This document shows positions 1-56,862 of a stretch of DNA of 64,000 nucleotides, piece by piece (position 1 is the stretch's first letter; each line of letters starts with the position of its first letter). Source of the DNA: Caecibacter massiliensis (GTDB lineage: Bacteria; Bacillota; Negativicutes; Veillonellales; Megasphaeraceae); assembly GCA_900095875.1 (NCBI GenBank), contig LT608311.1, forward strand, positions 248,001 through 312,000, written 5' to 3'. The notes beneath the pieces were generated by a model. That model was not told where the DNA came from and did no database searches. It worked only from the letters and a program-made list of their open reading frames with translations. Position numbers and translations under genes: made by a program.

Positions 1-339
1 ATACTTCTTCATGAGATTCTTGGCAAATACTTTGGACCCTTCCATCTGGGCCGCCGCCTTATTGGGGCCAAAAACGGCAATGCCTTTTTTCTGGCATACA
101 TCGGCAATGCCTTCTGTCAGCGGTACTTCGGGACCTACAACGATCATGTCTATGCCTTTTTCTACGGCAAAATCGGCAATGCGGTCCAGTTCTTCCACCC
201 CGATGGGCACACATTCTGCTATAGAAGCCATGGCATCGCTGCCAGGCAGGGCATACACTTTGTCTACGCTCGGACTCTGGGCCAGTTTCCAAGCCAGGGT
301 ATGTTCACGGCCACCGCCGCCAATAACGGCTACGTTCAT
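1..339 (-). CDS. purD: Phosphoribosylamine-glycine ligase (GAR synthetase), N-terminal part only
   Basis: Second step of de novo purine synthesis: ATP-dependent joining of glycine to phosphoribosylamine in the cytosol. Reading from the ATG at 339, the first 113 residues show the N-terminal Rossmann-like segment typical of PurD ([13 protein letters not shown], then VVGPEVPL and FGPNKAAAQMEGSK). The gene runs off the left edge, so the ATP-grasp domain is outside the window. Its start codon shares one base with the stop codon of the upstream purH fragment (TGATG), which suggests coupled translation as the last visible gene of the pur operon. Confidence 0.95.
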   Translation of the reverse strand, partial: MNVAVIGGGGREHTLAWKLAQSPSVDKVYALPGSDAMASIAECVPIGVEELDRIADFAVEKGIDMIVVGPEVPLTEGIADVCQKKGIAVFGPNKAAAQMEGSKVFAKNLMKKY

Positions 340-944
340 CAGTCAGCCGCCCCCTTTTCGACCTGTTCCGACAGGTAGGCCGCAATCGCGGTATCATACT
401 GGGCCGTATGCTGGAAGGCTTCCCGTGCCAGTTCCAGGCGGTAGGCGTCGGTAAATTCCCCGTCTTTTTTCAGGATATCGATGATTTCGCCATACTTGGC
501 CGGATTGGTGACGATGGCGACGTATTTGTTGTTTTTAGCCGATGCCCGGACCATGCAGGGACCGCCGATATCGATGTTTTCAATCGCTTCTGCCAGGGTA
601 ACGCCCGGTTTGGCAATCGTCTGCTGGAAGGGATACAGATTGACGACGACCAGATCGATGGGGGTAATGCCATGATCTTTCATATCCTGGACGTGGGACG
701 GGTTATCGCGGACGGCCAGAATGGCACCGTGAATCTTCGGATGAAGCGTCTTGACACGGCCATCCATCATTTCGGGGAAACCCGTTACGTCCTGTACTGC
801 CATGACAGGCACACCTGCTTCTTTTAATGTCCGCATGGTGCCGCCTGTCGAAATAATTTCAATACCCAGATCTGCCAGGGCTTTGCCCAGTTCAACAATC
901 CCCGTTTTATCAGATACACTGAGAAGCGCGCGTTTTACCTTCAT
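339..944 (-). CDS. purH: Stand-alone IMP cyclohydrolase (PurH N-terminal domain)
   Basis: Catalyses the last step of IMP synthesis, closing the ring of FAICAR. About 201 residues, covering only the MGS-like cyclohydrolase domain: [50 protein letters not shown]. Bifunctional PurH is usually about 510 residues; here the reading frame ends with a clean stop after the domain and purD follows at once, so the AICAR transformylase half is absent from this locus. It looks like a natural single-domain form rather than a frameshift, since no transformylase sequence follows. The start was taken at the second of two adjacent ATGs, 7 bases from AGGAGG; the first ATG (947) is also possible. Confidence 0.92.
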
Positions 945-956
945 CATGATTCCTCC

Positions 957-4084: not shown

Positions 4085-4639
4085 CTATTTTTTAAATACC
4101 TGAAGTACCTGGCCGGCCGCATTGTTCAGTTTCGTCTTAACGGCGTCACTGGTCTTCAGCATCTGTTGCAGCTTGTCATTTTTTTCCATGACCTGACGGG
4201 TCATTTTTTCCCGGTAAGCCTTATACTTGGCAGCCAGTTCGGGATCACTGACAGCACCGATCTGGATGGCAAAAAGGGCGGCATTCTTTGCGCCGTTGAT
4301 GGCCATGGTGGCGACGGGCATTCCCGACGGCATCTGCACGATAGCCAGGAGTGCGTCCATCCCTTTCAGGCTGCCGCTTTCCAGCGGTACCCCGATAACC
4401 GGGAGGGTCGTATAACTGGCAATCACGCCGGGAAGGTGGGCAGCCATGCCGGCGCCGGCAATGATACAGCTCAGGCCCCTGTCCTGTGCTGTAGATGCAA
4501 ACTCCCGTACTTCGGCTGGTGTGCGATGGGCTGAAGCCAGAAGGACTTCACATTCCACACCAAATTCATTAAACAAATCAAAAGCCTTTTTCATTACGGG
4601 AATATCGGAATCGCTTCCCAGAACCAAACCGACTTTCAT
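4085..4639 (-). CDS. purE: N5-carboxyaminoimidazole ribonucleotide mutase
   Basis: Sixth purine step, moving the carboxyl group of N5-CAIR to give CAIR. First gene of the operon. 184 residues from the ATG at 4639, which has GAGGAGGGG just upstream. Class I PurE motifs: [42 protein letters not shown]. It is about 20 residues longer than typical PurE; the extra part is a charged, probably helical C-terminal tail ([19 protein letters not shown]) that I do not recognise. Expression is probably controlled through the leader described at 4640-4809. Confidence 0.96.
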
Positions 4640-4649
4640 TACTAACCCC

Positions 4650-4698
4650 TCCTCAGAAAACACAAAACCCAAAGGGGACATAATATCACCTTTGGGTT
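4650..4698 (-). terminator. Hairpin with U-rich tail between pur promoter and purE (possible attenuator)
   Basis: A perfect 10-bp stem pairs 4689-4698 with 4666-4675 around a 13-base loop, and is followed on the minus strand by a T-rich stretch (TTGTGTTTTCT). It lies after the transcription start and before the purE ribosome binding site, the place of an attenuator. The T tract is interrupted, so it may be a moderate terminator. Confidence 0.6.
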
Positions 4699-4704
4699 GT
4701 TCAC

Positions 4705-4770
4705 CTAGACATACGGGTAGCATGATACATGTACAAACCGTTTAAAACCAGCCCATAAACCTGTATACAT
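4705..4770 (-). CDS. Putative 21-residue leader peptide of the pur operon
   Basis: An ATG at 4770 is preceded by AAGGAG at a 7-base distance and opens a frame of 21 codons ending in TAG at 4705. The predicted peptide is MYTGLWAGFKR followed by FVHVSCYPYV. It sits between the pur promoter and the hairpin at 4666-4698. The 5' part of this ORF (GTAGCATG at its start) can pair with CATGCTAC near its 3' end, so ribosome position could change RNA folding. No run of one amino acid is evident. Whether it is translated is an inference from the SD and position; the codons could also simply be part of a structured leader. Confidence 0.4.
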   Translation of the reverse strand: MYTGLWAGFKRFVHVSCYPYV

Positions 4771-4815
4771 GCTACATCTCCTTATTACTATTGATTGCAC
4801 ATCAAATACAGTTTC

Positions 4816-4844
4816 ATTCTAACAAAAAGGGCGTAGCGTGTCAA
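4816..4844 (-). promoter_or_regulatory. Promoter of the pur operon
   Basis: On the minus strand TTGACA (4839-4844) and TAGAAT (4816-4821) are separated by exactly 17 bases. Transcription would start near 4809, giving a leader of about 170 nucleotides before purE. I see no purine riboswitch consensus in that leader. Confidence 0.85.
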
Positions 4845-15194: not shown

Positions 15195-15486
15195 CGTCAC
15201 ACAAACGCGATGAAGCAAACTAGTAAACTTACCCAATCAGCTACAGAGAGCTGCCGGCCGGTGCAAGGCAGTGCGAACGGGGAGTCGAACTCATTGCCGA
15301 GCGGAAAGGCTGAAAGAAGGTTAGTAGGCCGCTACGGGAACTCCCGTTACAGAGCATGGATATCGCGAAAATGCCGTATCCGAGAGGGCGCCTGATTTTA
15401 GGCGAAGCAGAGTGGTACCGCGGAAGGATATATACGCCTTTCGTCTCTTAGCAAACACGCAGAGAGACGAAAGGCGTTTTCGTTTC
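15195..15486 (+). promoter_or_regulatory. T-box riboswitch, probable leucine specifier (CUC)
   Basis: The conserved T-box AGAGTGGTACCGCGG is at 15409-15423, followed by a strong terminator hairpin (15435-15448 with 15463-15476) and a T-rich tail. Stem I features: AGTA (15222-15225) facing GAA (15287-15289), and a lower helix GCAA (15215-15218) with TTGC (15294-15297). The triplet after GAA is CTC (15290-15292) followed by A. The trpS T-box in this same window has GAA-TGG-G in the equivalent place, which supports reading CTC (Leu) here; shifting by one gives TCA (Ser). Uncharged tRNA would favour antitermination and transporter expression. Confidence 0.9.
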
Positions 15487-15524: not shown

Positions 15525-16763
15525 ATGCAAACACCATCCACGTTTAAAACCGCATCGCTAAGCCTGTGCTTTTCGGTCGGTGCCGTATTATTCAGTTCTC
15601 ATGCCGGCGGCGGTTTTGCTACAGGCAATCAGGAAAACGTCTATTTCGTCAGCCTGGGCTGGCTCGGACCGGTTACAGCCATCATTACGATGCTGCTGTT
15701 TACACTGACCATCAAAGAAGCTATGAATATGTACAATTCCCGTCATCTGCGCAGTTATAAACAACTGTTCCAGAATTTGTACAGCCCGTTTAAAGGTATC
15801 GAAGTATTGTTTGAAGCATTCTTTTATATCATGGTCATCATGGCCGTTTCCGCCACGGTTTCCGGCGCTGCTTCTGCCCTGGCCGCACAGACGGGCATCA
15901 ACTATTATGCCGGTATCGGCATCGTCGGCACGATTATTTTCTTCCTGACCATTTTTGGTGCCGGCCTCGTCCGCCGCGCTACGACCTATATGGGCATTGC
16001 CATCCTGGCTATGGTCATTGCCATCTTCTCCGTCGGCGTCTATATGGGCGGTTCGGTAGAAGGCACCATGTTCTTTACACAGGCCATGGCTCAGGATTTC
16101 GCCGTAAACGGCTTCTCCAAATTGCCGACAGCTATTCTGCATGCATTCACCTACTCCGGTTTCCAGTGCGTCGTCATCCCGACCATGATCGTCGTCGGCA
16201 TGCCGTTGGTCACCCGTAAAAATTGTGCTACATCCATGTGGTTCTCTTTCGCTATGAATGCCATCGCCCTGACCCTGGCCGCCTGCATGCTCTTGGGCTG
16301 GACCGGCATCTATGGTAAATCTCCATTACCGACACTGACCAGCTTGAAATCCATGGGCATGACCTGGCTGACCGTTGCCTACAGCATCTTCTTGATGTTA
16401 TGCCTGATTTCTACGGGCGTTACGACCGTCTTTGGCTTCACGGCCCGTTTCTCTGAAATCCATATGCTGAAAAAAGTCAGCAAGAGTGCCGTTATCCGTT
16501 CTGCCATTGTCACGTTCTTCATCATTGCCCTGTCCATGACCGTTTCTATCGTCGGTCTGACCAATATCATCAAATACGGCTATGGCTACTGCGGATACCT
16601 GGCTATTGCTATCATCATCGTTCCCTTCCTGACCGTAGGCCGTTACAAAAACATCCGTTATGCCAAAGATAAAGCATACCGTGCCCGCATCGACGCCATG
16701 AATGCAGATCCTGATTCTTTCGAAGAATCTCCGGTCATGAGCACGGCCAAGGAAAACGCATAA
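15525..16763 (+). CDS. YkvI-type membrane transporter, T-box controlled
   Basis: 412 residues with about ten to eleven hydrophobic helices. The N-terminus SVGAVLFSSHAGGGFATGNQENVYF with its unwound glycine-rich segment, plus the general layout, fits the YkvI family (LeuT-like/APC fold, function unassigned). The start has AGGGGG seven bases before the ATG. It is preceded by a complete T-box leader, which argues that it moves an amino acid or peptide; the specifier points to leucine or, less likely, serine. It is a single gene closed by the hairpin at 16805-16850. The assignment to YkvI is by recognition of motifs, and the substrate is inference. Confidence 0.8.
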   Translation: MQTPSTFKTASLSLCFSVGAVLFSSHAGGGFATGNQENVYFVSLGWLGPVTAIITMLLFTLTIKEAMNMYNSRHLRSYKQLFQNLYSPFKGIEVLFEAFFYIMVIMAVSATVSGAASALAAQTGINYYAGIGIVGTIIFFLTIFGAGLVRRATTYMGIAILAMVIAIFSVGVYMGGSVEGTMFFTQAMAQDFAVNGFSKLPTAILHAFTYSGFQCVVIPTMIVVGMPLVTRKNCATSMWFSFAMNAIALTLAACMLLGWTGIYGKSPLPTLTSLKSMGMTWLTVAYSIFLMLCLISTGVTTVFGFTARFSEIHMLKKVSKSAVIRSAIVTFFIIALSMTVSIVGLTNIIKYGYGYCGYLAIAIIIVPFLTVGRYKNIRYAKDKAYRARIDAMNADPDSFEESPVMSTAKENA

Positions 16764-17794: not shown

Positions 17795-17990
17795 GTGAAC
17801 GTACCCCCGTCTATAGAGGCGGGGGCTTCCTGCTTCAACGAGAACAGCACCACTGACTCTGAAGAGTTGTGGCGACTTACACTCTCTCCACAGGCGTAAG
17901 TTTCCGTGCGACCCACGGTACTTTATGCGTTATGTCAGGCAGATATTCGCCTAGCTTCTTCTCGTATATTTATCGCAGCGTTCTTATCTC
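17795..17990 (-). ncRNA. Candidate omega RNA of TnpB
   Basis: In TnpB-carrying IS elements the guide RNA scaffold comes from the tnpB 3' end and the right end. Here this stretch is non-coding after 17935 and contains several pairings: GTAAGTCGCCACAACTC, then CAGTGGTG, and the terminal GC-rich hairpin at 17804-17825, the expected layout. The guide would be the host sequence just beyond 17795, reading towards lower coordinates. Existence is inferred from family biology and layout. Confidence 0.5.
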
Positions 17991-19044
17991 GGTTATGGTG
18001 ACTGCCACATTTAGGACAATCCCATTCCCTTACAGATAAGTCCTTAGTTGCATCGTTTTGGAAGCCACAAACATGACATAGCTGACTGCTTGGATACCAC
18101 TTGTCTACCTTTACAAGCTGTTTTCCTTGCCATGCTAATTTGTATTCCAATATATTTGTGAACATATTCCAGCCATTATCTGCTACGGACTTACCAAAAC
18201 TGAATTTACCGCCTTTCTTGCGTTTAGCCATCGCCTTAACGCTGATATCCTCGATACCAATAGCATCATAGTGGTCTACCAAGTAGCGGGCTTTTTTGTG
18301 CAGGAAGTCGCGGCGTTGATTGGCAATTTTCTCATGAAGCACAGCTACGCGAAGCCTTTGCTTTTCACGATTGTGGCTTCCTTTTTGCCTTTTGGATAGT
18401 TTTCTTTGTGCTTGAGCCAATCTCTTCTCGGTTTTACGCAAAAAGTTTGGATAATTCGCATCCTCTTCGTCAGAAGCAACATATAGACCGTGCATGGCAA
18501 AATCAAGCCCAAGAAATTTCTTCGGCATTATAGGGAGTATTTGGTTTTCGTACTCCACCAAAATACTGATATAGAATTTTCCTGAAGGTGTTCTGCTTAT
18601 GGTAACGGTCTTTATCGTGCTGTTTTCCATCAGGGGACGATGCAGACATAATTTTACCCAACCAACTTTAGGCAATTTAACCTTATTTCCTTCTAATCGG
18701 ACAGAGCCTTTCTGATTGTTCGTAGAATATGAGCAGTGGCCTGTCTTCTTAGACTTGAAGTGCGGTTTGCCAAAATGTTTTCGGTTGCGAAAAAAATTGT
18801 TATATGCCTTGTTCAGGTTCATCTGTGCATTGGCAAGAGCAAGACTGTCCACTTCTTTCAGCCAAGGGAATTCTTCCTTGTACTGTGCAGGAGTATTATT
18901 CAGTTTCTTACCGGTTTCCTTATAGTAATCAAGGCGGTCTCCAAGCATCTTGTTATAGATGAATCGGACACAGCCGAAAGTCTTGGCAAACATAATTTTT
19001 TGTTCAGCCGTTGGATAGAGCCTGTATCGGTATGCCTTATTCAC
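17935..19044 (-). CDS. tnpB: TnpB RNA-guided endonuclease of IS200/IS605 element
   Basis: 369 residues, full length for the compact TnpB/IS1341 type. The RuvC acidic residues are all present: D181 in GLDFAMHG, E265 in IGIEDIS, D353 in HNRDKNAA. A zinc ribbon is formed by CHVC (323-326) and CPKC (343-346). The N-terminus YRYRLYPTAEQ and the SLALANAQMNLNKAYNNFF segment are typical of the recognition domain. It starts with GTG. Known members cut DNA matching an omega RNA guide next to a short motif and help keep the IS in place. Nothing suggests decay. Confidence 0.95.
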   Translation of the reverse strand: MNKAYRYRLYPTAEQKIMFAKTFGCVRFIYNKMLGDRLDYYKETGKKLNNTPAQYKEEFPWLKEVDSLALANAQMNLNKAYNNFFRNRKHFGKPHFKSKKTGHCSYSTNNQKGSVRLEGNKVKLPKVGWVKLCLHRPLMENSTIKTVTISRTPSGKFYISILVEYENQILPIMPKKFLGLDFAMHGLYVASDEEDANYPNFLRKTEKRLAQAQRKLSKRQKGSHNREKQRLRVAVLHEKIANQRRDFLHKKARYLVDHYDAIGIEDISVKAMAKRKKGGKFSFGKSVADNGWNMFTNILEYKLAWQGKQLVKVDKWYPSSQLCHVCGFQNDATKDLSVREWDCPKCGSHHNRDKNAAINIREEARRISA

Positions 19045-56589: not shown

Positions 56590-56862
56590 ATAAAAAAACC
56601 TTCCATCCCTTATATATAGGGACGAAAGGAAAGTATTTCCGCGGTACCACCCTGGTTGGCATAATGCCCGGCTCTTACATGCACATCATCATGCACTCTT
56701 TCCTGGTAACGGTGAAAGTTCCGGCCTGTCATACTGACTTCTGACAGCCTCTCCCGGGCCCATTCCTTCTTTCTCCTCCTGCCGGACTTCCACCCTCACC
56801 GGCTCGCTGAAAGGGGTATGAAAGAGCTACTTGCTCCCGTTCATCGAGTTTCTTTGTATATA
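56590..56862 (-). promoter_or_regulatory. T-box riboswitch of trpS, Trp specifier (UGG)
   Basis: The T-box CCAGGGTGGTACCGCGGA is at 56638-56655 (minus strand), followed by a terminator hairpin (56618-56629 with 56599-56610) and seven T. In stem I, AGTA faces GAA, which is followed by TGG (56760-56762) and G, the tryptophan codon. Gene and specifier agree, so this is a clear tryptophan T-box. Confidence 0.96.

Follow-up and report, generated by a model that had tools for sequence, protein, structure and literature searches.

The pur operon of Bacillus subtilis is controlled by PurR together with a purine riboswitch attenuator, and a leader terminator is located ahead of purE. In leaders of the tet(M) type, expression of the resistance gene is induced by slowed translation. 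For pyrimidine genes of E. coli, attenuation depends on the ribosome. Coupling between translation and transcription has been described for pyrBI (PMC5021804), while at pyrE a shift of the rph stop codon towards the attenuator provides a second precedent (PMC2784333). A further relevant system is a stem in the sxy mRNA of H. influenzae, whose translation is raised by purine depletion and for which no ligand binding was found (PMC3739930). Searches of open-licence full texts listed no purine operon with a leader-ORF or translation-coupled attenuator, a scope in which older subscription papers could be missed. The main text of a survey of bacterial premature terminators mentions neither “purine” nor “Veillonella” (PMC2965389). 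Here, the leader of a purine operon was analyzed within a window of 64,000 nucleotides, the whole stretch of DNA under study. The analysis leads us to regard this leader as probably a translation-coupled attenuator, at the core of which translation of the leader prevents termination.

Arrangement of the leader upstream of purE

The operon is located on the minus strand, with the gene order purE-purF-purM-purN-purH(IMPCH)-purD, followed by a fumarase-like gene and then purC, as assigned from ORFs and Pfam. The initial annotation described a consensus promoter about 170 nt before purE, followed by a good Shine-Dalgarno sequence (SD), a 21-codon ORF, a hairpin with a T-rich tail and the SD of purE. 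Every one of these elements is present on that strand, the promoter being of the sigma-70 type and spanning 4844-4816. The features read from the sequence and from predicted folds are as follows.

4839..4844, minus strand: promoter -35 element TTGACA (sequence; a similar promoter occupies the same place in the leaders of relatives)
4816..4821, minus strand: promoter -10 element TAGAAT, with a 17-bp spacer (sequence)
4778..4783, minus strand: SD of the leader ORF, AAGGAG (sequence)
4705..4770, minus strand: leader ORF of 21 codons plus TAG, MYTGLWAGFKRFVHVSCYPYV (sequence; open frame in relatives)
4773..4778, minus strand: 5' strand of helix P1, GAUGUA, overlapping the SD-to-start spacer (RNAalifold, unaided; pairing recurs across genera)
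4708..4713, minus strand: 3' strand of helix P1, UAUGUC, immediately 5' of the leader stop codon (RNAalifold)
4768..4775, minus strand: GTAGCATG, 5' arm of the genome-specific helix of the initial annotation (predicted fold)
4717..4724, minus strand: CATGCTAC, 3' arm of the same genome-specific helix (predicted fold)
4666..4698, minus strand: intrinsic terminator hairpin AACCCAAAGG...CCTTTGGGTT, -16.8 kcal/mol, starting 6 nt past the leader stop
4657..4665, minus strand: U-rich tail of the terminator, TTGTGTTTT (sequence)
4646..4654, minus strand: SD of purE, GAGGAGGGG (sequence)
4085..4639, minus strand: purE, with its ATG at 4639 (Pfam AIRC, 1.5e-62; ORF)

Transcription would start near 4809, resulting in a leader of about 170 nt. 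The leader together with its terminator folds more stably than 198 of 200 shuffled sequences (z -2.45), and the GG of the leader SD and the next G are invariant in an alignment of 13 leaders. Around the putative start (4811-4801), bases resembling GTRTTTTGAT are unusually alike across the window's family, perhaps reflecting control at the level of initiation. An extended purE start at 4723 is also present in the ORF list. Within the operon, purH (339-947, minus strand) encodes 202 aa that correspond to IMP cyclohydrolase only and match the AICARFT/IMPCHase Pfam model over 62 of its 311 positions; AICAR transformylase must therefore be encoded elsewhere. The class II fumarase-like gene between purD and purC (L178:2105-3490) perhaps recycles fumarate from purine synthesis. 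At 17935-19044 (minus strand), a TnpB-like, transposon-associated ORF was recognized by inspection of its translation.

Occurrence in relatives, and control by PurR or riboswitches

The genome set was arranged in numbered groups, including families f1 (the family of the window), f2, f3 and f4 and genera g5, g6 and g10-g13, of which g12 is Veillonella. Of 61 genomes of the order, 54 yielded a purE locus, and the DNA upstream was read for most of them. In f1, promoter, SD, an ORF of 19-28 codons, terminator and purE follow one another in the same order in all 16 purE-bearing genomes. The same layout can be observed in genus g10 and in 11/11 inspected Veillonella genomes, and one and the same leader is present in a g12 genome and in Veillonella caviae DSM 20738. 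Seven f2 genomes carry a longer version, in which an ORF of 40-73 codons runs into or through the terminator. No leader was seen in the upstream regions read for g13 (7 genomes), f3 and g5/g6, nor upstream of purE in 13 class-level loci outside the order, nor at the named Sporomusa, Selenomonas, Schwartzia and clostridial loci. Where it is missing in g5/g6, purE is located 3' of a purine-permease-like gene. In these PurR-less genera of f2, the permease-first operon has a 5' UTR with a terminator-like hairpin and no obvious leader ORF (L179, L180, L184).

The initial annotation had made its reading depend on conservation of both the ORF and the hairpin in close relatives. Both are conserved in relatives, and the terminator is kept with compensatory changes (RNAalifold). 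A covariance model built from 13 leaders detects one strong copy per purE-bearing f1 genome, always at purE, and recovers at E 6e-6 the leader of G004, a genome outside the model. The recurrence of the layout in every inspected purE-bearing f1 genome and the single copy at purE indicate that the arrangement is more than chance. Three weak matches elsewhere in the genomes were inspected as possible second copies and rejected, since each was either the terminator of an unrelated gene or a leader resembling that of tet(M). The latter (L218:501-623 in G004) precedes a tetracycline resistance gene of the ribosomal-protection class, named tet(M)-like by eye, and is itself another leader ORF running into a terminator. 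The g11/g12 genomes contain matches of equal score that may represent this element as well.

The initial annotation had also named a high-scoring Rfam riboswitch hit over the ORF as a refutation, but the search with Rfam 15 assigned no family to the leader. The best match, a sub-threshold SR6 (21.6 bits against a cut-off of 55), is spurious and corresponds to the terminator, and in the leaders of 17 relatives nothing was found at E<0.1. No covariance-model match to the purine riboswitch (RF00167) was obtained in the leader, nor in f1 or f2 genomes, this element being found only in some Veillonella genomes. ykkC/PRPP, ZTP and other Rfam riboswitches likewise gave no covariance-model match in the leader; three ZTP riboswitches are present elsewhere in the genome of the window. 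The view that the leader contains no purine riboswitch is thereby borne out for this leader and those of the 17 relatives, while the likeness to ykkC that had been read from a CUAGG stretch receives no support. Over the whole window, Rfam detected only two T-boxes and two tRNAs. The T-boxes, both above the Rfam cut-off, are located at 15201-15451 (plus strand), upstream of a transporter-like ORF at 15525-16763, and at 56615-56853 (minus strand).

PurR (PF09182) is absent, at the model cut-off, from the genome of the window, from all f1 and f2 genomes and from g10. The lack of a PurBox pair upstream of purE, already noted in the initial annotation, fits this absence of PurR from the family. PurR is present in g12, g13 and f3, where PurBox-like GTTCGG/CGAAC sites are visible upstream. 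In Veillonella, purE promoters combine PurBox-like sites with the leader ORF and terminator (L064, L066, L068-L070, L072-L073, L075-L076), and judging from these sequences two layers of control may coexist there. Since Veillonella possesses both PurR and the leader, the latter is not simply a PurR substitute and does not strictly replace it. In f1, which possesses neither PurR nor the purine riboswitch, no candidate other than the leader was found through which purines might control the operon.

Helix P1, the open frame and the proposed attenuation

Besides the terminator, the only helix predicted by RNAalifold for 13 leaders is P1, in which 4778-4773 pair with 4713-4708. Its cells are paired in 94.9% of cases, in comparison with 14-62% in slid positions. 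The strands differ across genera while the pairing recurs, as GAUGCRC/GUGURUC, GACGCAC/GUGCGUC, GCGUUA/UAACGC and AUAUCC/GGAUAU. In all 11 representatives, six or more bases of the SD/start region are paired with bases among the final 25 nt upstream of the terminator, whereas shuffled sequences would give 3.5 such cases (combined Fisher p 1.1e-5, the single-leader p-values being mostly weak). Moreover, pairing was better between cognate P1 strands than after swapping (p 5e-5 overall, 3e-4 for f1+f4). The same cognate-versus-swapped test was not significant for the f2 (Dialister-like) leaders (p 0.19), and covariation of P1 within f1 alone was not above that of shuffled partners, because one-sided G-U changes predominate there. 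Pairing of the region before the terminator with the terminator 5' arm, examined in 14 leaders, was no better than that of shuffled sequence. The initial annotation had suggested an alternative fold formed by pairing of the two ends of the ORF. GTAGCATG and CATGCTAC do pair in the predicted fold, but this exact 8-bp pair is particular to this genome. What recurs is a helix joining the SD/start region to the bases immediately 5' of the terminator, and it is predicted to close the leader ribosome-binding site (RBS) rather than to serve as an antiterminator.

An alternative reading of the leader is a riboswitch of a new class, with the long P1-P2 hairpin serving as aptamer of a purine-related ligand and controlling the terminator, and with an ORF that is only incidental. 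At the RNA level, f1 leaders retain P1 and the motif GUGURUCUAAGUG irrespective of the reading frame, CUCAGUG persists in L040, where no stop codon results, and among the leaders listed many f1 folds beat their shuffles, with z of about -2 to -5. Between genera, however, conservation is confined to the SD/start and the ORF end and does not extend to the hairpin interior, and no Rfam match was found in this leader or in 17 relatives. Moreover, there is no pairing between leader and terminator arm for a ligand to switch, and the open frame would be left unexplained. We therefore consider a new riboswitch unlikely.

The open frame itself is a consistent property of the leaders. In 33/33 distinct leaders, frame 0, read from the leader start codon, meets no stop until 10 nt or less from the terminator, and the other two frames are open as far in 15/66; no raw probability is quoted as a p-value for this count, since the leaders are mutually related and start codons were picked by eye. 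The stops range from 7 nt before the terminator to positions inside or past it, via different frames and stop codons, and within f1 two different frames of GUGURUCUAAGUG lead to the stop. Numbers of synonymous versus nonsynonymous codon changes are 0 versus 8 between L075 and L076, 2 versus 16 between L042 and L043, and 1-2 versus 9-12 between Veillonella groups. This suggests that selection keeps the ORF open and not its peptide. As the peptide is not conserved, it is probably the act of translation that matters.

The same data bear on attenuation by a nascent peptide or by amino-acid supply, in which a metabolite or an uncharged tRNA would cause the ribosome to stall on the leader, as in the tna or trp operons. 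A weak “LW” at codons 5-6 is common to most f1 leaders, with Leu encoded by the synonymous TTA or CTG, and might reflect selection on the peptide within most of the family. It is absent from L040-L043, g10, Veillonella and f2, no run of regulatory codons occurs, nonsynonymous changes dominate, and the mutually exclusive antiterminator of trp/his-type systems is lacking; such stalling is quite improbable. Of the leader-peptide or protein-controlled attenuation considered in the initial annotation, attenuation through the leader ORF fits best, but the peptide sequence is not conserved. To about the same low degree we credit an RNA-binding protein or small RNA acting on the stem or leader to decide translation or termination, with the protein sensing purines. 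The authors of the sxy study preferred an undiscovered purine-binding protein for a similar stem (PMC3739930), and the RNA motif around P1 is conserved in f1, but between genera it is the layout that is conserved and not the primary sequence. Least probable is an unregulated leader, in which the terminator fixes the expression level and the ORF only tempers its strength: the restriction of the leader to a single copy at purE, and the persistence in several genera of the ORF and the terminator together with the helix that closes the RBS, suggest a specific input.

In the translation-coupled attenuation favored here, RNA polymerase would start near 4809 and expose the strong leader RBS. A ribosome loading at once, close behind the polymerase, would reach the leader stop 6 nt before the terminator and cover the base of the hairpin, so that transcription would run on into purE; in relatives, the ribosome would enter or traverse the terminator. 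Since no alternative fold of the antiterminator kind was found, a ribosome on the hairpin base would be the simplest block to the terminator. A ribosome with a stop codon in its A site is expected to cover about 10 nt beyond the stop, so that a gap of up to 7 nt would still leave the first base pairs of the hairpin covered. Should the ORF end be transcribed before any ribosome has loaded, P1 would fold back on the RBS and shut out late ribosomes. With the leader untranslated, the terminator would form and the operon would be off. The peptide would be a by-product. We infer that translation represents the ON state and that P1 acts as its gate.

Regarding the signal, a low level of a purine nucleotide (GTP or ATP) may slow the polymerase relative to the ribosome, following the UTP logic of E. 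coli pyrBI/pyrE. Taken alone, this purine-NTP signal is put forward tentatively, as a possibility with the odds somewhat against it. Judged by its base composition, the leader contains no purine-rich tract of the kind that could account for pausing dependent on NTPs, so that the sequence does not support the pausing part. A different input with the same output would be ppGpp, lowering initiation on the leader. The most far-reaching version of the proposal is a sensor of purines that would use neither an aptamer nor a repressor: when purine scarcity slows the polymerase, a ribosome would load before P1 folds, so that this race would report the purine pool and set termination, and in Megasphaera and related genera the sensor would have replaced PurR. 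As a whole, this version is rather unlikely.

Comparison with known systems

Compared with the purine operon of B. subtilis, the locus shares a leader terminator before purE in a purine operon of Bacillota. It differs in that the family of the window has neither PurR nor the purine riboswitch and the leader is apparently translated. Leaders of the tet(M) type also possess a small ORF whose end coincides with, or lies inside, an intrinsic terminator, and one of them weakly matches the same covariance model, whereas the downstream gene is unrelated. The sxy stem resembles P1 in restraining translation initiation without a known aptamer, its translation being increased when purines are scarce. 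In contrast with P1, it acts on the translation of a protein gene, has no attenuator terminator and bears no sequence relation. If the proposed mechanism is correct, competition between polymerase speed and a stem closing the RBS would also be conceivable behind the purine response of H. influenzae sxy.

The closest likeness in layout is to pyrBI/pyrE-type attenuators: a leader ORF with an RBS is open up to or through the terminator, an intrinsic terminator precedes the first structural gene, and no competing antiterminator is needed. In E. coli pyrBI (pyrL), a short ORF with a good SD likewise leads into an intrinsic terminator of a nucleotide-synthesis operon; the terminator is blocked when a ribosome closely trails RNA polymerase, and the peptide sequence is thought unimportant. 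The two differ in pathway, pyrimidine genes there and purine genes here, and have no sequence relation. Furthermore, most f1 ORFs stop before the hairpin, while those of Veillonella run into or through it, a conserved helix closes the leader RBS, and nucleotide sensing is here an inferred property. The likeness to E. coli pyrE (rph) consists in a stop just before or at the attenuator hairpin, where the last ribosome masks the hairpin. In contrast with rph, a full upstream gene, the ORF here is a dedicated leader of about 20 codons, preceding a purine operon and equipped with an RBS-closing helix. If confirmed, the mechanism would explain purine control in a family that has neither PurR nor a purine riboswitch, and would carry the pyrBI/pyrE principle over to purine genes and into the Negativicutes. 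As judged from these comparisons, it would represent a principle known from pyrimidine genes, in a new pathway and a new lineage, with a helix added over the RBS.
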